The notes under the pieces: generated by a model
Told to the model about the DNA's origin: nothing
The model's database searches: none
What the model saw: the letters and a program-made list of their open reading frames with translations, nothing else
Assembly: GCF_000210915.2 (NCBI RefSeq)
Contig: NC_016620.1
Location: 1,736,001-1,800,000 of the forward strand
DNA from: Halobacteriovorax marinus SJ
Lineage (GTDB): Bacteria > Bdellovibrionota > Bacteriovoracia > Bacteriovoracales > Bacteriovoracaceae
Direction: 5' to 3'
DNA: 64,000 nucleotides
Made by a program: the position numbers and the translations under genes
Shown: positions 45,084 to 54,391 of the stretch, piece by piece
Layout of the letters: the number at the start of each line of letters is the position of its first letter
Numbering within the stretch: position 1 is the stretch's first letter

Positions 45084-46280
45084 ATGAGAAAGAAGCTCTA
45101 TCAAAGAGAACACAATACCTTGGCCGAGGATAAACTCACGGTCAAAAAACTTGAGTTCAATCATAGAAAGAATAAAGAACAGGATCACACTGAGCTACTA
45201 GATAGTAGCGCAAAGAGTTTTAATTATCAGGACTGCAAAGGTGAGTACTGGAACCCAGAGAAATTCTCTCTACTCTATGGCACTCCCCTGTGGGATCAGG
45301 CCAGTGCAAATGAGAGGGTTCTTCTCAATCAAATATACTGGGTGGCCTATTACGCGCAAATTATTTCAGCAGAAATAGCAACAATCTTCTTTAATCAAAC
45401 TGCGGCAGCAGGACTCTTTGGACTCGAAGACTTTAGACTTGTTTGTGAAACCTTAGATTTTGAATCTATGCAGGAGAGGGCCCATATCGATGCCTTCAAA
45501 GTTATAGGAGAACAATTTGAAGAGGAAGTCTTTGGAGAGAGAATATTTACTTATCCAATGAGGCCATATTTCTATGAAACAATGATTTTTCAAAAGACAA
45601 ATATGATCAAGAAATTTTGGAAATCAATTCAGCTTAGAAGTTATTCCCTACTCTCTTCAGGTAATGCCTTTATAGGCTGCCAATACTTAACAGTAAGAGG
45701 ACTTAGAACACTTAATGGTAAAATTGTTCAACACCAATTGAGTAAATACTATACAGACCATGAAGACAAAGAGAATGCACCAATTCCCTCTAAGGTGAGT
45801 TACTATCACTTTATGGATGAATCCTATCATTTCAATAGTTCAAATATAATTGGTAGCGATATCATTAAGAATTTAAAAAAGCCTACCGCCTTTGAGAGTT
45901 TCATTGCCAATCTAGGAATCAAAGGAACTCTTAAAGACCACTCAAACTTTAATATTAGTGTGAATGGGATTTTTTGGTATGAACCAGCAATTTTTGAAAC
46001 TCTTTTAAAACTACTTACTACAAAAGTCTTTGGTATGAGTGAGAAAGATGCCATTCATATTCTTAAGGAGTGCTTCACTAAAGAGAACCAAGGAATTGTA
46101 GAAGCTTTTGAGACCCATCAAACGGCACTTGAGAGTTATAGAAATTACCTCTCCAATATAGAGTATGTTTCAAAGTCTAATAAGAATGGAGGCGCCATGA
46201 ATAAGACCTCTATTGAGAATTACCTAACTGAAAATAGAAGGCAATTCTTTGAATTTGAGAGGAAGAAAAATGTCGCTTAA
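45084..46280 (+). CDS. AurF-like diiron oxygenase
   Basis: The 398-residue protein carries the pattern of the AurF/CmlI family of amine oxygenases: Glu97 (ISAEIAT), Glu131 and His134 (QERAH), and His242-Glu246-His249 (HFMDESYH). The spacing matches AurF E101, E136-H139 and H223-E227-H230. The ligand matching AurF E196 has no glutamate in the expected stretch (about 190-225), so the site may be altered. Known members oxidise aryl amines to nitro groups; the substrate here is unknown. The ferredoxin that follows, overlapping by 11 bases, could supply electrons. First gene of the plus-strand operon; AAAGGA is upstream. Confidence 0.75.
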   Translation: MRKKLYQREHNTLAEDKLTVKKLEFNHRKNKEQDHTELLDSSAKSFNYQDCKGEYWNPEKFSLLYGTPLWDQASANERVLLNQIYWVAYYAQIISAEIATIFFNQTAAAGLFGLEDFRLVCETLDFESMQERAHIDAFKVIGEQFEEEVFGERIFTYPMRPYFYETMIFQKTNMIKKFWKSIQLRSYSLLSSGNAFIGCQYLTVRGLRTLNGKIVQHQLSKYYTDHEDKENAPIPSKVSYYHFMDESYHFNSSNIIGSDIIKNLKKPTAFESFIANLGIKGTLKDHSNFNISVNGIFWYEPAIFETLLKLLTTKVFGMSEKDAIHILKECFTKENQGIVEAFETHQTALESYRNYLSNIEYVSKSNKNGGAMNKTSIENYLTENRRQFFEFERKKNVA

Positions 46281-46563
46281 TAAAGTAGAGATCGATGGAC
46301 AGGCAAACTCTGTCGAAGTAGAGGACGGCAAGCACTTGAGTGAAGTACTTGATGCTACCAACTCACCTATCCTCTTTGGTTGTAGAACGGGAATTTGTGG
46401 GACTTGTCTAATTCAAGTGCAAGAGGGAATGGAAAATACTTCTGCTCCCTGTGAAGATGAGCGAGAGTTCTTAGAGATTGTGGCCGAAGGTGACTCGACA
46501 ATGAGACTTGCCTGCAAAGTAAAAACAAGCGGCAATATAAAAATCAAATATATTGGAAAGTAG
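46270..46563 (+). CDS. Plant-type [2Fe-2S] ferredoxin
   Basis: From the ATG at 46270 (GAGGAAG upstream) the 97-residue protein has the cluster cysteines Cys38, Cys43, Cys46 (CRTGICGTC) and Cys82 (LACK), as in plant-type ferredoxins. An in-frame TTG at 46249 is possible but less likely. It is probably the electron donor for the AurF-like and Rieske oxygenases of this operon. No ferredoxin reductase gene is seen in the cluster. Confidence 0.92.
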   Translation: MSLNKVEIDGQANSVEVEDGKHLSEVLDATNSPILFGCRTGICGTCLIQVQEGMENTSAPCEDEREFLEIVAEGDSTMRLACKVKTSGNIKIKYIGK

Positions 46564-46572
46564 GATTATAGT

Positions 46573-47610
46573 TTGGAAAGTGAGAAGAAAATTAACTTTA
46601 AGAATTTTTGGTATATCGCCTGCGAATCAAAAGAGCTTGGAAAAAATCAAGTACTAGCTAGAACAATTCTAGATGAATGGATAGCTCTTTTTAGAGGAGA
46701 TGACGGCGCACCAGTGGCGCTGCAAGACCGCTGTATCCATAGAAATAGTCAGCTCTCAAAGGGCTGGGTAAAAGATGGACAACTACAATGTAGTTATCAT
46801 GGTTGGACATTTGATAAAGTTGGTAAATTAACAGGAATCCCATCTGAGGGTCCCAATCAAAAAAAAGTAGGATCTCGCTGTGCTAAGTCCTATGAGTGTA
46901 TAGAGCAAGATGGATTTATATTCATCCGATTAGAGAAGAATGAAAACCTCGACATTCCACCCCACAGAATGCCTCACTATGGAGAGAAAGGCTGGCAGAC
47001 GGTCAGACTTTTCAATGTCTTTAAAAATAGCGTTATTAACTGCGCAGAAAATTACATTGATGTCCCTCACACGGTATTTGTTCACGACAAAATATTTAGA
47101 GACGCACTAGATGAAAAGGTCACAACAAAAGTGCAAAGAAAAGACGGTGCAGTTCATATTGAATATATTGGAGAAACGGATAATCTAGGTTGGTTCTCTT
47201 GGTTTTTAAATCCTAAGAAAGAGCCAATTACTCACATAGATCACTACTACATGCCAAATATAACTTCAGTACAATACATCTTTGGAAAGAAAGAATTTTG
47301 GATCACAAGCCAATGTATTCCAATTAATGATGAATTAACTTGGGTATGGACAGATTTAACTTATAAGTTTGGCCCTATTGGAGTTTTAGCAAAGCCTATT
47401 GTCGCCTTTCAAGGGCAGAAAGTAATAGAACAAGATATCGTGGCCCTTGATAATCAAATGGAAGTCATCAAGAAATATGGAGAGAACTTCTCAAACGCTA
47501 CAGCAGATATTATCCATGTCTTTATTGAGTCCATTTACAATGCCATAAAAGAGGGAAAAGACCCTAGAGAGTTGGCGGAAAAGAATAATGAGGTTACCTT
47601 TTGGATATAA
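46573..47610 (+). CDS. Rieske non-heme iron oxygenase, alpha-subunit type (1)
   Basis: The Rieske cluster ligands are Cys54, His56, Cys73 and His76 (CIHRN and CSYHGW). The mononuclear iron facial triad appears as Asp163, His166 and His171 in YIDVPHTVFVH. At 345 residues it resembles stand-alone oxygenases that hydroxylate or demethylate single substrates, not three-component dioxygenases. TTG is used as start. The next gene starts within its last ten bases. It differs in sequence from the two Rieske proteins on the opposite strand. Confidence 0.93.
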   Translation: MESEKKINFKNFWYIACESKELGKNQVLARTILDEWIALFRGDDGAPVALQDRCIHRNSQLSKGWVKDGQLQCSYHGWTFDKVGKLTGIPSEGPNQKKVGSRCAKSYECIEQDGFIFIRLEKNENLDIPPHRMPHYGEKGWQTVRLFNVFKNSVINCAENYIDVPHTVFVHDKIFRDALDEKVTTKVQRKDGAVHIEYIGETDNLGWFSWFLNPKKEPITHIDHYYMPNITSVQYIFGKKEFWITSQCIPINDELTWVWTDLTYKFGPIGVLAKPIVAFQGQKVIEQDIVALDNQMEVIKKYGENFSNATADIIHVFIESIYNAIKEGKDPRELAEKNNEVTFWI

Positions 47611-48362
47611 AGTGGTGGATTGAGCTCAGCATTTTTTCTTCATTAGTCCTCTTCACCGCTTATGATAGTGAGAGAAGGGAGAGATTGTTAAAGAAGAAAT
47701 TCGATGACTGGTTTTGCGATCTAATCAATTTAACAATCCAAGGAACCATTGTTCCCTTAATTCAAGTATACTTTATCGTTAAAGTACTAAAGCTCACACT
47801 TCCAAACTTTGAAAGCACATGGCAAATAGGTATCACTGGTGCCATATTCTTAAATTTAATAATTGTAGACTATGTCTATTATCTCACTCACAAAGCTCTA
47901 CACAAAGATCGCTGGTGGGGCCTCCATCTACTCCACCACTCAGTTACTGACTTTGATATCTTTGCTAGTGCTAGAAATACAATTTGGACTACGTTTATAT
48001 TTCCTTATGTATGGCTAAATTCAATATTCTACTTCTTTATTGATAATAAGAAAGCTTATCTTGTGTGTGCATCAATTACAGCGATGCTAGATCTGTGGAG
48101 GCATTCTAAGTTAGCTCCAAAAATAAAGGGGCCTATCTTTAATTTCCTCTCGCTAATTCTTATTACTCCCCATGAACATAGTTGGCATCACTCTAAAGGA
48201 GTCTCAAAGAAGAACTTTGGCGCGAACCTATGTATTTGGGATAAGCTTCACGGAACCTATCACAATAATCCACGCTTTCCTAAAGAGATGGGTTATCCAA
48301 TAAAATCGGACTTAAAAACTAAGCTTCTAAATCCTTTTAAGCTAAAGAGAGAAAATTCATGA
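47601..48362 (+). CDS. Membrane fatty-acid-hydroxylase / sterol-desaturase superfamily protein
   Basis: Three histidine clusters of the family are visible: HKALH, HLLHH and HSWHHS, each near a membrane segment. These metal-binding clusters form a diiron site at the membrane surface that hydroxylates or desaturates lipids, sterols or carotenoids. At 253 residues it is a normal length. The start is a TTG overlapping the stop of the Rieske gene, with GAGGT upstream. The substrate is unknown, but the presence of GH3 and acyl-type enzymes beside it favours a fatty acyl chain. Confidence 0.9.
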   Translation: MDIKWWIELSIFSSLVLFTAYDSERRERLLKKKFDDWFCDLINLTIQGTIVPLIQVYFIVKVLKLTLPNFESTWQIGITGAIFLNLIIVDYVYYLTHKALHKDRWWGLHLLHHSVTDFDIFASARNTIWTTFIFPYVWLNSIFYFFIDNKKAYLVCASITAMLDLWRHSKLAPKIKGPIFNFLSLILITPHEHSWHHSKGVSKKNFGANLCIWDKLHGTYHNNPRFPKEMGYPIKSDLKTKLLNPFKLKRENS

Positions 48363-48994
48363 CTATGTGGAGTAGAATATTCGCACTCTTTCCCCTCTGT
48401 CATATGGCCATTATCTTGGGCTCTATTTATTACTTTGTCCTATGCCCAAGCTTCTTTGCCCCAGCACTGGTTTTTAGTGCTATCTACTTATTCCCTCTTC
48501 TATGCTTTAGAGTTCTTAATTTCATCACTCCAATAGAAGAAGGTGTAAGTGATATATTAAATGATCGCTTTTCGCCGTGGTGGGCCTCACACCAGATTCA
48601 GACACTCTTTATTGCAGTGCCTTCACTAGAGGCCATTCTAAAAATAATACCTGGGGCCTTTTCACTTTGGCTCCGAATGTGGGGCTCAAAAGTAGGAAGA
48701 GGTATCTACTGGACACCCGGTTCGTGTCACTACGATAGAAACCTACTTGAAATTGAAGATGGTGTCATTTTTGGGGAGAGATCCACAACTGTTTGCCATG
48801 TCATCACTCCTAAAGATGGAAAAGGACTCCTTAGAATTAAGAAAATTAAAATTGGAAAGAGGGCCTTTATTGGAGCAGGCAGTGTCCTAAGTCCAGGAGT
48901 TGAAGTTGATGAAGCAGTCATGATTAGAGCGGGAAGTGAGATCTATCCAATGAGAAGAGTGACTAAAGACGGGGAAGTTAAAATTAATGATTAG
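48359..48994 (+). CDS. Hexapeptide-repeat (left-handed beta-helix) acyltransferase-like protein
   Basis: The first 110 residues carry two membrane segments. The C-terminal half has hexapeptide-repeat rungs (LEIEDGVIFGERST, IKIGKRAFIGAGSVLSPGVEV). This layout resembles acetyl/acyltransferases that modify lipids or sugars, and also the C-terminal region of some NRPS-associated proteins. The start overlaps the previous stop by four bases and its stop overlaps the GH3 gene by eight. Confidence 0.75.
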   Translation: MTMWSRIFALFPLCHMAIILGSIYYFVLCPSFFAPALVFSAIYLFPLLCFRVLNFITPIEEGVSDILNDRFSPWWASHQIQTLFIAVPSLEAILKIIPGAFSLWLRMWGSKVGRGIYWTPGSCHYDRNLLEIEDGVIFGERSTTVCHVITPKDGKGLLRIKKIKIGKRAFIGAGSVLSPGVEVDEAVMIRAGSEIYPMRRVTKDGEVKIND

Positions 48995-50477
48995 ATCTTT
49001 TCTAAGTTCACTCTTTCAATATCTCTATATATTACTCTTTAGTAGTAAGTACGAAAATTTTCTTAAGTCATTAAAAAATCCAAAAGAAACACAATTAAAT
49101 ACTCTAGAAGATATTCTTGAAATTTATAATCACTCTCCTATTTCTAAAGACTGTAAAGTTAAAACTCTAGAAGAGTTTAAAGCTCTTCCCATTAGAGATT
49201 ATAACGAAATGGAAAGTGAGATTAAAAATAATCTTCTCTACCCAAGGCCATTTACAAAGTTTGAAAAGACTTCAGGTAGTTCAGGCAAGAATAAAATGAT
49301 TCCCTATCCTGAGTCACTACTTAGAAGTTTTAGAAATTTATTTATCATATGGTCAATTGATATACTTAAGAATATAAAATTTAAGACTCTGGTGTTCTAC
49401 TTCTCCATCTCTCCGCAGTTTAAAGAAAGTCCAGACGATGGGGCCATGAGTACAGATAGAGAGTATCTTGGAGCATTTCTAAGTACAATTGGTCACTCCT
49501 TCTTTATAGAAATTCCAAATCTAGAGAGAGTTAAAGACTCTTTAGAATTTAAAATGTTACTCTCCCTCCATCTCATATCAAATAGAAAACTAGAGATTAT
49601 CTCTATATGGTCTCCAAGTTTTATGACAGAACTATGGTCATTTATTCTAGAGAATCAAGATGAGATCTCTCGCGCACTATCTAAAGGTAAGTACGAATCG
49701 TGGAGCTTTACTCCTATACAATTAAAAGAATTCTCTCCTAAAAGTTGCTTTCCAAGTCTTAAGTTTATTTCTACATGGGGAAGTCAAAATGCAATCTATC
49801 ACTATGATAAATTGAAGACCATATTTAAAGATATTACCATTCAAAAGAAGGGCCTATTAGCGACAGAGGCCCCTATTACAATCCCAATTTTTGAAGCAAA
49901 GGGATTTACTCCCCTATTAAATGAAGTATTCATGGAGTTTAGAACAAAGGAAGGTCATGTCTTTAACCTTTGGGAGATTGAAAAAGGAGAAGTCTATGAA
50001 ATCATCATCTCTCAAAAGGGTGGTCTTTACAGATACTGCTTGAAAGATCTCGTCATAGTCACTCACTTCTATAAGAAAACTCCCTGCATAGACTTTTATG
50101 GACGAAGAGATGCCCTAAGTGATCTTGTAGGTGAGAAACTTCATGAGCTAGATATAAGAGATGCCTTTAAAGGAACAAGCGCACAATTTGCAATCCCAGA
50201 TCAAAGAGATTCTCGCTATATAATAATCAGCGAAGAAATACTCACACAAACGGAGTTACAAAGAATAGAAAAGAGGCTTAGAGAGAATTACCACTATAAT
50301 AACGCTAGAGAACTAGATCAGCTAAAACCTCTAAAAAGTATTTCTATTCAAAACGGTGAGAAGAAACTAAGTGAGTATATGGAAAATATAAGAGGGATAA
50401 AAAAAGGTGATCAAAAGCTTGGACAACTCCTCTACCGTGAGAGCGACGGAAAGTTACTCGCCGCTCTTAGTTTGTGA
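48987..50477 (+). CDS. GH3-family acyl-adenylating enzyme
   Basis: The 496-residue protein contains the GH3 motif FEKTSGSSGKNKMIPYP near residues 90-108 and the later FYGRRDALSDLVGEKLHEL. GH3 enzymes activate a carboxylic acid with ATP and join it to an amino acid or amine; the plant ones act on auxin and jasmonate. The acid here is unknown. It is last in the plus-strand operon and overlaps the end of the convergent Rieske gene by 24 bases. GH3 proteins occur in scattered bacteria, but I know of no fixed pairing with AurF-like oxygenases. Confidence 0.9.
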   Translation: MIRSFLSSLFQYLYILLFSSKYENFLKSLKNPKETQLNTLEDILEIYNHSPISKDCKVKTLEEFKALPIRDYNEMESEIKNNLLYPRPFTKFEKTSGSSGKNKMIPYPESLLRSFRNLFIIWSIDILKNIKFKTLVFYFSISPQFKESPDDGAMSTDREYLGAFLSTIGHSFFIEIPNLERVKDSLEFKMLLSLHLISNRKLEIISIWSPSFMTELWSFILENQDEISRALSKGKYESWSFTPIQLKEFSPKSCFPSLKFISTWGSQNAIYHYDKLKTIFKDITIQKKGLLATEAPITIPIFEAKGFTPLLNEVFMEFRTKEGHVFNLWEIEKGEVYEIIISQKGGLYRYCLKDLVIVTHFYKKTPCIDFYGRRDALSDLVGEKLHELDIRDAFKGTSAQFAIPDQRDSRYIIISEEILTQTELQRIEKRLRENYHYNNARELDQLKPLKSISIQNGEKKLSEYMENIRGIKKGDQKLGQLLYRESDGKLLAALSL

Positions 50478-51521
50478 CCATATAGAATCTTCTAATTTAT
50501 TTAAATAACCAATATATTTAACAACTGGTGCATCCAGCTTTAAAAAAGAAGTAGAATTGAATCTAATATTCTCATAGACCATACCATCTTCTCCCTGAAG
50601 CATTTTAAAAAACCTCTTTGTCATAAAGAGTTTTAAGAAATTAGAAAAGGGAGCAAATAGCCCAGTGGATCTCTTATTTACAAATATAGGTCTAACCAAT
50701 ATTCTCCCTTCCTCTATTAAAGAGTATGCGAAGATCATTTTAAGCTCAGGCAAAGTAAAGCGGTTAAAGAGCTTCGCTCCCTTGAGCATCGTAAGCGCGG
50801 CCAAACAGCCATCTGCGTATTTCATAGAATAAGAATACTCTTCTCCAAGTAAGAACTTCCCCATTCTCTCCTGTAGAGTTGCAGTAGGGAATTTTCCACT
50901 TAATGTGAACTCAATATGATTGCTCTTAGTCTCATCGATATCAATATCCATATCGATACTTATATTGTGAACTGTTCTAAGGTGTTGTGGGTCAATTCCA
51001 TTGATCATAGTAATATGATAGTGACAACTTCTCTCGTAGGTCTTATCAAAGCTATAGATGAGATCACAATTTTCTAAGCCTGGTATATCTAGGACTTCTT
51101 CATCTGTTTGTGATTCAGGCCAAACCCAGATATGGCCATATTTCTCTCTTGTAGCATAGCTATTAAATTTTAAATTCTTTGGTGGATCTTCACCGCACGG
51201 GATGTGCACACACTTGGCCTCTTTATCGAATTGCCAGTGGTGGAAGAAGCATTGTAGTTTTTCATCTACAACTTTTCCAATTGCTAAATCAACACCCATA
51301 TGTGGACAAAATCCATCTGTGCATGCAACACCATCTTTGGTTCTCCAAAGAACTAATTTTTGTCCATTTAAGTCTATGCTTAGAACTTTATCTTTACCAA
51401 GGTCTTTAGACCGGCATGCGATATACCAACCCTTAGTAACGACATTCCAATTATTAAAAATTCTATGCTTTCTCATGGGTTGAGTTCTTGTGTTGAACTC
51501 ACTTGTTAATTTCTTAGTCAT
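50454..51521 (-). CDS. Rieske non-heme iron oxygenase, alpha-subunit type (2)
   Basis: Rieske ligands Cys72, His74, Cys91 and His94 (FCPHMG and CFFHHW) and the iron triad Asp177, His180 and His185 (IDPQHLRTVH) are intact. It is more like the Rieske protein at 53282-54391 than the one at 46573-47610; both share CPHMG and CFFHHW and the MING/MINA-ID motif, so gene duplication within the cluster is likely. It is the last gene of the minus-strand operon. An ATG 15 codons later could also be the start. Confidence 0.93.
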   Translation of the reverse strand: MTKKLTSEFNTRTQPMRKHRIFNNWNVVTKGWYIACRSKDLGKDKVLSIDLNGQKLVLWRTKDGVACTDGFCPHMGVDLAIGKVVDEKLQCFFHHWQFDKEAKCVHIPCGEDPPKNLKFNSYATREKYGHIWVWPESQTDEEVLDIPGLENCDLIYSFDKTYERSCHYHITMINGIDPQHLRTVHNISIDMDIDIDETKSNHIEFTLSGKFPTATLQERMGKFLLGEEYSYSMKYADGCLAALTMLKGAKLFNRFTLPELKMIFAYSLIEEGRILVRPIFVNKRSTGLFAPFSNFLKLFMTKRFFKMLQGEDGMVYENIRFNSTSFLKLDAPVVKYIGYLNKLEDSIWSQTKSGE

Positions 51522-51574
51522 AATTAATTTTAACTCTAAGTGAATACCTAGAGTAAGAGGAAAAATTGACTCTT

Positions 51575-52486
51575 CTAGGCAATTGATAGCATTTGATCAA
51601 TATCAAAGCTCTTAAGCTTACCAGAACTCTCCATTTCTCCTAAGAGTGTATGAGCACCTGATTTCTTCATTAGTGCAGATAATTGATCAAGCTTTCTTTG
51701 TGTTGTCTCCATGGCATTCATTTGAGAGAGAATATCTCTCTTATTAGATCTAGAAAGAGAATCAACTGATGAAATTAGTCTTGAGTAAACACTCAGTGGA
51801 CCACACTGAACCATAGAGAAGAAAGTTTCTAGAGATACTCTCACATACTCTAGGTCTTCACGTGATAATTCACTTTCATTAAAAAGAATTAATCCACTTC
51901 CGTGATGAGAAGCTTCATCAGCAAGAATCGATGAGAGATCTTCCTTTAATGAATCATTTAGACAACTCTTTGCCATAGTATTGTAGTGATCCATCCCCCA
52001 TCCTTCTAGGAGAACTTGAATCATAAAAACCAGAGACTTCTTAGGTGCAGTCTCAATCATTTGCGCCAAGAGCTGCAGGAATGGATTACACTCAGGCGTT
52101 AGATTTGTATTATTGATATATTTTGAGACAAGCTGAAAGTGCCTCGCCTCATCTCCAGTAAAAGTTCCATAGAGAAGTCTCTCTTCTAAGTTCTCACTTA
52201 AAAGAGTCATCTTAGCTCCATAGGCAATACCGGACTTTTCAATATGATATGCTTCTTCTACTCGGTCACTAGAGTTTTGAGTAAGTAAGAGACTTTGCTC
52301 TTCGATTGATAAATTTTTAAATACTTCTACATTTTGTAAGTCAAAGGCCTCTTCGTCCCAGAATACACCAGTAGTAAGAAACTCGCCTCTTTGCTTATAG
52401 CGAGTTTTCAATATCCTCTTCAAAGATTCATTACTTCTTTGGTGAAGATTATTCATATAAACTGATACATCTAGACTCTTGCTCAT
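51575..52486 (-). CDS. Ferritin-like diiron protein
   Basis: The 303-residue helical protein has a full diiron ligand set: a first-helix Glu (Glu78 or Glu83), Glu113-x-x-His116 (DEARH), Glu161, and Glu191-x-x-His194 (DEASH). This is the arrangement of ferritin-like oxygenases and acyl-ACP desaturase relatives. The function is unknown. The gene sits between the GNAT-like and Rieske (2) genes in the minus-strand operon, with two bases to the former. Confidence 0.82.
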   Translation of the reverse strand: MSKSLDVSVYMNNLHQRSNESLKRILKTRYKQRGEFLTTGVFWDEEAFDLQNVEVFKNLSIEEQSLLLTQNSSDRVEEAYHIEKSGIAYGAKMTLLSENLEERLLYGTFTGDEARHFQLVSKYINNTNLTPECNPFLQLLAQMIETAPKKSLVFMIQVLLEGWGMDHYNTMAKSCLNDSLKEDLSSILADEASHHGSGLILFNESELSREDLEYVRVSLETFFSMVQCGPLSVYSRLISSVDSLSRSNKRDILSQMNAMETTQRKLDQLSALMKKSGAHTLLGEMESSGKLKSFDIDQMLSIA

Positions 52487-52488
52487 GA

Positions 52489-53292
52489 TTAATCCCGACT
52501 AATATTAGAGACACCAAATAGAGAGAGGAGTCTTTGTTTATATGATATAGATATTTTCTTATAACTCTTTTTTATAATCTTTAGTTGATATTTAAGTGGC
52601 ATTGAAAGAGTCATCACGGCCAGACAACATAACTCGTCACCCTTTTGCCAATTTGGATTAACTCTATCAAAGAAATCAACTCTTTTATTAGAAGATTTTA
52701 ATTTTTCTGTAATTGGAGCAACTCCAAATTTTAAGGCATCTTTAGAACAGCCCTCAAACTTTATGAGACCACTAGCTCTATCAAAGTACTCTGGGTACAT
52801 AATAGTTGAAAAACCATTAAGAATCTCTTGTTGATACTCTGGAGTTTTCACCTCATGTCTAGGCCAGTGTTCATCGAAGTTATTGGCCATAAGTAAATAA
52901 GTCTTAAATCCCTTGGAGATCAAGTACCAATAGAGAGGAGAGAAAGGTCTCTTTAATTTCTCTATGAAGAGATACTTTAAAAAGGCAACACCCAGTGTTC
53001 CTTGCCCCCAATATTCTTTTTCAATAATAGTATCACCACTAAAAACACCGCGGTGAATTTTACCTCCCAGGGAGACATAAGTTAAATTTACGATAGTAGA
53101 GAAACCTCTAATCTTGTTCTCTTTCTTATCCATTAAAAGAAAGACACTATCTTTTGAATTTAAGTCTAGACAGAATGTATTAAAACAAGAGTTTTCATAG
53201 TATTTAGAGAATACCTCAAACATACTCTCGCGTTGCTCTGGAGTGATCTCACTTACGTGAACTGTCTTAGAATATAACTTATTACCCTTCAT
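52489..53292 (-). CDS. GNAT-like acyltransferase
   Basis: The 267-residue protein has GNAT-type features: FSGDTIIEKEYWGQGT fits the beta4-alpha3 acetyl-CoA motif, and the preceding RGFSTIVNLTYVSLGG gives the expected strands. Past residue 190 the sequence is unusual. The substrate is unknown; an acyl-CoA or acyl-ACP donor is plausible given the cluster. Its start overlaps the end of Rieske (3) by 11 bases. Confidence 0.7.
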   Translation of the reverse strand: MKGNKLYSKTVHVSEITPEQRESMFEVFSKYYENSCFNTFCLDLNSKDSVFLLMDKKENKIRGFSTIVNLTYVSLGGKIHRGVFSGDTIIEKEYWGQGTLGVAFLKYLFIEKLKRPFSPLYWYLISKGFKTYLLMANNFDEHWPRHEVKTPEYQQEILNGFSTIMYPEYFDRASGLIKFEGCSKDALKFGVAPITEKLKSSNKRVDFFDRVNPNWQKGDELCCLAVMTLSMPLKYQLKIIKKSYKKISISYKQRLLSLFGVSNISRD

Positions 53293-54391
53293 GACTCATC
53301 TCCATAACTTCTTTAGAGCTATTAACTTTCTTAGACGCAACCAGAGGACCGTTGTGTAAATCAATCATATCTTCTACGTCATTATCAATTTTCTTAGCAT
53401 AACCCCAATCACAGGTTTGTTGCTTTTCTGCGTGTTGAATAAATTTTATTATTGCGTGGTCTTCATTTAATGGGTGCTTGAAATCAAATTTTATCGTTTT
53501 AAAAACTTCCGTATCTCCAGCAGCAAAGTAATTACCTACAACTTTAGTAGCTGCCAAAAGAACTTTATTTACAAGCTTACCAATAAGACCTTTTCTCTTT
53601 TTAGTTATGAGTACTGTCTGTCCCTCGGCCTTTCCTTGTTCATTACTTCGAATAGCAAACATTATATGAAAGTGGAGAAAATCTGGTCCAATTGTGACCG
53701 TTCCAGTAGAAGCGTTAAAATAGCACATAGAATAAGTAAGTGCTCCAGCATAGAATCTTCCAATAAAGCGTGTGAAGATATTAGTGTCAGGAACTTTGGT
53801 CTCATTATTAAATTGAATCGTATTTGAGTTAATCACTCTTGGTCTTAGAAATAATTTAACTGGAAGATTGTGAACACTATAAAAGTGATGAGCATCAATT
53901 GCATTGATCATCATTACATTTGGATGACACTCTTTTACAAATGGTGTTCCGAGAGTTGAGTCAACTTCTTGATCTTCTAACTCAGGGACAAAAGGTAGCT
54001 TCCTCTTGGCCTGCTCCCCAGTCCAAATCCAAATAAGTCCGTAGCGCTCTTCAACTGGATAAGTTGCTTGCTTTACTTTAAGACCTAGCTTTTCCCTACA
54101 AGGGATATCGTTTAAATTTCCTTCACTATCGAATTTCCAATGGTGAAAGAAGCATCTAACTTCATTACCTTCTACTTTTCCTTCGGCCAAATGAGCGCCC
54201 ATATGTGGACAATGGGCCTTAAGAGCTCGAACGATACCATCTTCTCCGCGGTACACGGCCAAGTCCTCACCCATAAGCTTAAGATGCTTAATCTTTCCCT
54301 TCTTGAGCTCCTTTGAGCGCAGTCCCCAGTACCATCCTTCGATGATGGCATGAGTATTATTAAAGATCTTCGTCTTAGATAGATTGGACAT
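53282..54391 (-). CDS. Rieske non-heme iron oxygenase, alpha-subunit type (3)
   Basis: Rieske ligands Cys61, His63, Cys80 and His83 (CPHMG and CFFHHW) are followed by the iron triad Asp166, His169 and His174 (IDAHHFYSVH). At 369 residues it is full length. It is the first gene of the minus-strand operon and related to Rieske (2). Its start is upstream of the 356-base gap shared with the barrel gene. The ferredoxin at 46270 is the only electron carrier seen in the region. Confidence 0.93.
   Translation of the reverse strand: MSNLSKTKIFNNTHAIIEGWYWGLRSKELKKGKIKHLKLMGEDLAVYRGEDGIVRALKAHCPHMGAHLAEGKVEGNEVRCFFHHWKFDSEGNLNDIPCREKLGLKVKQATYPVEERYGLIWIWTGEQAKRKLPFVPELEDQEVDSTLGTPFVKECHPNVMMINAIDAHHFYSVHNLPVKLFLRPRVINSNTIQFNNETKVPDTNIFTRFIGRFYAGALTYSMCYFNASTGTVTIGPDFLHFHIMFAIRSNEQGKAEGQTVLITKKRKGLIGKLVNKVLLAATKVVGNYFAAGDTEVFKTIKFDFKHPLNEDHAIIKFIQHAEKQQTCDWGYAKKIDNDVEDMIDLHNGPLVASKKVNSSKEVMEMSHEG

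Follow-up and report, generated by a model that had tools for sequence, protein, structure and literature searches.

Gene content of the locus

Ten open reading frames lie side by side in the analysed window, a stretch of 64,000 nucleotides from the 3.44 Mb genome of Halobacteriovorax marinus SJ. They form two convergent arms that, with coordinates and strands checked, span exactly 45084–54391: P1, P2, P3, P4, P5 and P6 follow one another on the plus strand, and P10, P9, P8 and P7 occupy the minus strand (Table 1). A previous sequence-only reading had described two convergent operons with overlapping genes in this interval. Both points hold, the overlaps within arms running from 4 to 32 nt (P1/P2 32 nt, P3/P4 10 nt, P4/P5 4 nt, P5/P6 8 nt and P9/P10 11 nt) and the 3' ends of the two arms overlapping by 24 nt. 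No carrier protein gene is present within the cluster, and promoter- or terminator-like sites around it are in no excess over shuffled sequence.

Table 1. Genes of the cluster, with positions in the window and the basis of each assignment
Gene and product	Position	Strand	Basis
P1, CylC-clade ferritin-like diiron enzyme, 398 aa	45084..46280	+	motifs, alignment, predicted fold
P2, [2Fe-2S] ferredoxin, 104 aa, CxxxxCxxC..C	46249..46563	+	Pfam Fer2 E 5e-12; motif in 78/78
P3, Rieske oxygenase 1, 345 aa, Rieske centre and D163-x2-H-x4-H	46573..47610	+	Pfam, NCBIfam, motif
P4, membrane fatty-acid hydroxylase/sterol-desaturase family, 253 aa, three His boxes	47601..48362	+	Pfam, NCBIfam, motif
P5, 211 aa, N-terminal hydrophobic stretches, C-terminal hexapeptide repeats, acyltransferase-like	48359..48994	+	Pfam, NCBIfam
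P6, GH3 acyl-adenylating/acyl-amido synthetase family, 496 aa, TSGSSG and RYxxxD motifs	48987..50477	+	Pfam, PDB profile, motif
P7, Rieske oxygenase 2, 355 aa, D177-x2-H-x4-H	50454..51521	-	Pfam, motif
P8, second ferritin-like diiron protein, 303 aa, ligands E83, E113-x2-H116, E161, E191-x2-H194-H195	51575..52486	-	ligand pattern, predicted fold
P9, family-less protein, 267 aa, GNAT-like by eye only	52489..53292	-	profile searches; pairs with GH3 also in P1-less clusters
P10, Rieske oxygenase 3, 369 aa, D166-x2-H-x4-H	53282..54391	-	Pfam, motif

All cluster proteins except P1, P8 and P9 have Pfam support above the cut-off (Fer2, three Rieske domains, FA_hydroxylase, Hexapep, and the GH3 N-terminal and middle domains at 78.3 and 57.4 bits, respectively), which bears out the earlier labels of ferredoxin, three Rieske oxygenases, membrane hydroxylase, hexapeptide-repeat protein and GH3 enzyme. 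The oxygenases and GH3 retain their catalytic motifs. Each of P3, P7 and P10 combines a CxH-x15-20-CxxH Rieske site with a Dx2Hx4H iron site, and the Rieske, ferredoxin, FA-hydroxylase and GH3 motifs are widely kept in relatives; the adenylation motif of P6 was recovered in only 40 of 60 fragments, though not all of these were complete. P2 is likely to be an electron donor, and P4 has distant similarity to the ornithine-lipid hydroxylase OlsE. PDB profiles match P6 to plant GH3 enzymes (E 7e-20 to 3e-13). It is homologous to the synthetases JAR1, GH3.5, GH3.12 and GH3.15 and has motifs in common with them, although the plant enzymes measure ~580–620 aa and the bacterial protein ~500 aa.

P8 is sub-threshold for Pfam Ferritin_2, but it keeps ExxH...E...DExxH-type diiron ligands and has a predicted ferritin-like fold; its earlier description as a second ferritin-like diiron protein stands. 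The P8 model fits aldehyde-deformylating oxygenase best (Z 17.0, rmsd 3.4, 205 aligned), but many diiron families reach a Z of at least 15, and we therefore do not claim membership of that family. Profile searches of Pfam, NCBIfam and the PDB gave nothing notable for P9. One of its 11 homologs matches a GNAT model weakly (E 0.014) and none has a match in the PDB, and the GNAT label given to this protein was consequently not confirmed.

Conservation of the gene set in and beyond Bacteriovoracales

Homologs of P1 occur in 23 of 129 genomes of the order Bacteriovoracales, and P6, P8 and P9 are all present in each of these 23. Among the 106 genomes of the order without P1, P6 was tallied from the search results in 41, P8 in 9 and P9 in 30. 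The neighbourhoods of 22 relatives keep the order P1-P2-P3-P4-P5-P6 wherever the contig permits, with GH3 displaced in one of them (L046); the second arm is rearranged yet close by. An additional SDR gene usually lies between P8 and P9 in the relatives and has no counterpart in the window's cluster.

The P1 alignment, searched against genome contigs, matched 152 loci, of which the best 80 were retained. These best 80 come from Cyanobacteriota (47), Bdellovibrionota, Pseudomonadota, Myxococcota, Elusimicrobiota, Acidobacteriota, Planctomycetota and Melainabacteria, and place the gene set in at least seven phyla. Partner genes were counted in the 52 of these 80 loci that have ~10 kb on either side: P2 was found in 51, P3 in 47, P4 in 49, P5 in 45, P6 in 43, P7 in 41, P8 in 47, P9 in 44 and P10 in 46. 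At least eight of the nine partners were present in 42 of the 52. Clusters in separate pieces also occur, as in Accumulibacter and Halobacteriovorax. Recurrence of the same set in at least seven phyla takes the association far beyond chance.

The distance matrices of the nine partners follow that of P1 closely (r 0.88–0.96, with none of 200 permutations as high), a correlation due in part to the common ancestry of the hosts. In the P1 tree, the Bdellovibrionota rows require one change (support 88), two Sericytochromatia bins without a phylum label falling inside, and all cyanobacterial rows but one form a single group; recent transfer between phyla is therefore not the main picture. As several records are metagenome bins, isolated odd placements carry little weight. 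The ten genes are thus a real conserved unit that recurs across phyla and whose members diverge in step. The sequence-only reading had taken them for one unit and suggested searching the set for conservation; the co-occurrence in the order, the matching distances and the multi-partner loci strongly support that view, with block and first-arm order kept and the second arm rearranged.

P1 and the Rieske-containing cluster class

The ExxQExxH and HxxDExxH motifs are used to recognise dimetal-carboxylate (CylC-type) halogenases, and AurF is without the first of them (PMC12871659). P1 carries both, as E127SMQERAH134 and H242FMDESYH249, and each is found in 82 of 82 relatives; HxxDExxH is also present in AurF-type genes and so does not discriminate halogenases from that type. 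The residues at the P1 site are E97, E127-x2-Q130-E131-x2-H134 and H242-x2-D245-E246-x2-H249, with Q216 at the position of AurF E196 and NocO E252. Nine active-site residues have been named for NocO, in which the alanine mutant E252A is inactive (PMC12101540). For comparison we took CylC-type genes from the same cyanobacterial genomes, situated between genes for a fatty-acyl ligase, a carrier protein and a PKS (neighbours recognised by eye from sequence) or in resorcinol-type clusters. Eight of the nine NocO residues are invariant in all 102 sequences (92 of the Rieske clade and 10 CylC-type), whereas the ninth is Gln in 92 of 92 Rieske-clade sequences and Glu in 10 of 10 CylC-type relatives. 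One of the latter (L162) has a 30-residue spacing, counted on the alignment, to the Asp of HxxDExxH, equal to the NocO E252–D282 spacing. AurF-type genes of the sister clusters described below have Glu at the ninth position in three of three cases, and Glu also at position 130, which is Gln in the halogenases. A 2025 paper places an open, possibly chloride-binding site at the ninth position and mentions a small group of proteins with Gln there, which it counts as homologues. New here is the tie between this Gln and the Rieske cluster class.

The label ‘AurF-like’ given to P1 by the sequence-only reading holds for the fold and fails for the family. The predicted fold is closest to AurF (VIA Z 18.3 to 3chi, rmsd 3.8, 292 aligned), and the His/Glu diiron ligand pattern is that of AurF and CmlI. 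However, P1 scores 14.8 bits against a gathering cut-off of 29.6 for Pfam AurF (PF11583), a sequence search of the PDB returned no match for it, and Q130 and Q216 replace the Asp and E196 of the N-oxygenases. With the diiron radical halogenases CylC (cylindrocyclophane) and NocO (nocuolin), P1 has in common both motifs, the first Glu and an AurF-like fold; unlike them, it has Gln for the ninth-residue Glu, no FAAL, ACP or PKS partner, and a very long branch separating it in the tree. On sequence grounds, we assign P1 to the CylC-type clade of Rieske-containing clusters and not to AurF proper.

That cluster class was named ‘Rieske-containing’ in a 2021 survey of cyanobacterial CylC homologs (PMC8406957). 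Its members (n = 36) have no known product and mostly combine a single CylC homolog with two to four Rieske proteins and a member of the sterol desaturase family, in the absence of a carrier protein (PMC8406957). The network cluster of the class took in some deltaproteobacteria and Melainabacteria, and the authors propose that the class acts on fatty-acid intermediates (PMC8406957). Like that class, our cluster has the single CylC homolog (P1), several Rieske proteins (P3, P7 and P10), the sterol-desaturase/FA hydroxylase (P4) and an acyltransferase-like protein, is equally carrier-free, and is joined to the cyanobacterial clusters by the P1 tree and by gene neighbourhoods. It differs from the class as described in that the main text of the survey is without GH3, hexapeptide proteins, Bacteriovorax or Bdellovibrio (PMC8406957). 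The cluster is a member of the described class, to which the ten-gene composition and the range over at least seven phyla are new. The sequence-only reading knew of no described pathway with these genes, which is correct for the product and incorrect for the cluster class, described in cyanobacteria in 2021 (PMC8406957). In a literature search for a product or a GH3-Rieske pathway, with subscription papers mostly outside reach, only the 2021 survey was directly relevant.

Substrate, product and alternative readings

The pair P9 and GH3 also exists apart from P1. In 18 of the 30 P9-bearing, P1-less genomes of the order, P9 adjoins GH3 (hand tally; within 10 kb on one contig), and both genes are present in most of the 18 P1-less regions that were retrieved (L171–L188, for example L172, L179 and L182). 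Many of these sister clusters add genes for a Rieske protein, a secreted protein similar to c9 (see below), an MMPL transporter, fatty-acid desaturases, PAP2 and an FG-GAP/NQR2 protein. In one (L174:2829-13096), P9 and GH3 stand beside KAS III-like genes, an acyl carrier protein, an AMP-binding ligase and SDRs, possibly an acyl-condensing pathway built on the same pair.

It is chiefly because the sister clusters keep lipid-type genes (desaturases, PAP2, MMPL) that we prefer a lipid substrate. We give an even chance to the reading in which the ten genes make up a single conserved unit for oxidative biosynthesis, probably acting on a fatty-acid-derived substrate. As the cluster has no carrier protein, the substrate would be a free or lipid-bound acyl chain. 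P1 would functionalise an unactivated carbon of this chain by chlorination or a related C-H oxidation, the ferredoxin P2 supplying electrons to P1 and/or the Rieske enzymes; P3, P7 and P10 together with the membrane enzyme P4 would carry out further hydroxylation or desaturation, and P8 one more O2-dependent change. GH3 (P6), with P9 and/or P5, may then convert a carboxylate to an acyl-AMP and couple it to an amine or other nucleophile. This route would lead to an amide-type lipid or a small lipid signal that is oxidised and possibly carries chlorine. Both the enzyme set and the lipid genes of the sister clusters are compatible with the earlier proposal of an ‘oxidised, amide-linked small molecule or modified lipid’ as the putative product.

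Whether chlorine enters the product depends on P1. Since Q216 replaces a Glu that is essential in NocO, where the alanine mutant is inactive (PMC12101540), and since a very long branch separates the two clades, halogenation may not be the reaction of P1. The enzyme might instead hydroxylate, desaturate or otherwise oxidise C-H bonds to give a halogen-free product, a serious prospect that we place a little short of even and that draws on the uniform Gln of the Rieske clade against the Glu of CylC-type and AurF-type genes. Against it, the other eight residues are invariant, the halogenase-specific Gln included, and the 2025 paper puts the possible chloride site at this very position and treats the Gln subset as homologues. 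The fold similarity to AurF and CmlI, the best solved folds for P1, and the occurrence of an AurF-type gene in three of the sister clusters could instead suggest N-oxygenation, with a nitro, nitroso or azoxy compound as product. This is very improbable: P1 has the ExxQExxH motif absent from AurF (PMC12871659), and its Q130 corresponds to Asp in AurF and to Glu in the AurF-type sister genes; an AurF N-oxygenase role for P1 was rejected on these motifs.

The remaining alternatives change the role of the whole cluster. Rieske oxygenases and ferredoxins are frequent in degradation operons, and several oxygenases acting together could break down an aromatic or lipid compound. We consider catabolism improbable, as no widely recurring family among the recurring neighbours identified hints at a degradation route, the ligase appears to be of the amide-forming GH3 type, and the set is common to oxygenic phototrophs and predators. 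Modification of a sterol or hopanoid is the least probable reading of all. The top NCBIfam match of P3, P7 and P10 is indeed 4beta-methylsterol monooxygenase (SdmA-like), far below the cut-off, and P4 belongs to the FA_hydroxylase/sterol desaturase family; but the squalene-hopene/oxidosqualene cyclase family PF13243 was absent from 12 of 12 carrier genomes of the order, and present in three of four cyanobacterial carriers, so that the cluster is unlikely to act generally on a sterol or hopanoid.

That ten genes for oxidation and acyl activation stay linked in at least seven phyla implies a common molecule that has escaped notice. Gaps in the detection tools may be the reason: antiSMASH missed some CylC clusters, and CORASON the Rieske type (PMC8406957). 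P1 is related to the radical halogenases and carrier-free, and its natural Glu-to-Gln exchange at the presumed chloride-binding position would help to test what makes a diiron enzyme a halogenase. A bolder and more tentative proposal, well short of an even chance, is that P1 and its relatives constitute a third catalytic class of the AurF/CylC superfamily, carrier-free and with Q130 and Q216 at the diiron site, and that the cluster directs synthesis of an unseen oxidised, possibly chlorinated lipid amide common to predators, cyanobacteria and other phyla.

Several further genes were noted near the clusters. An amidohydrolase resembling N-acyl-D-amino-acid deacylases (by eye) lies beside the cluster in 19 loci, including L111:1-1325, other Nostoc, Accumulibacter and Elusimicrobia, and is suggestive of an amide-type product. 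A small membrane protein of Mpo1/DUF962 type, also recognised by eye, adjoins the cluster in Bacteriovoracales and Nostoc (L028:1535-2023, for which no Pfam match was found, and L113:5348-5761). The H. marinus genome has a second GH3 gene near 961,500 (L050:11390-12943), with no other cluster gene within the surrounding 20 kb. The protein c9 (L038:7379-8911; 510 aa), probably secreted and without a Pfam family, is encoded close to the cluster in nine relatives, and the sister clusters contain homologs of it.
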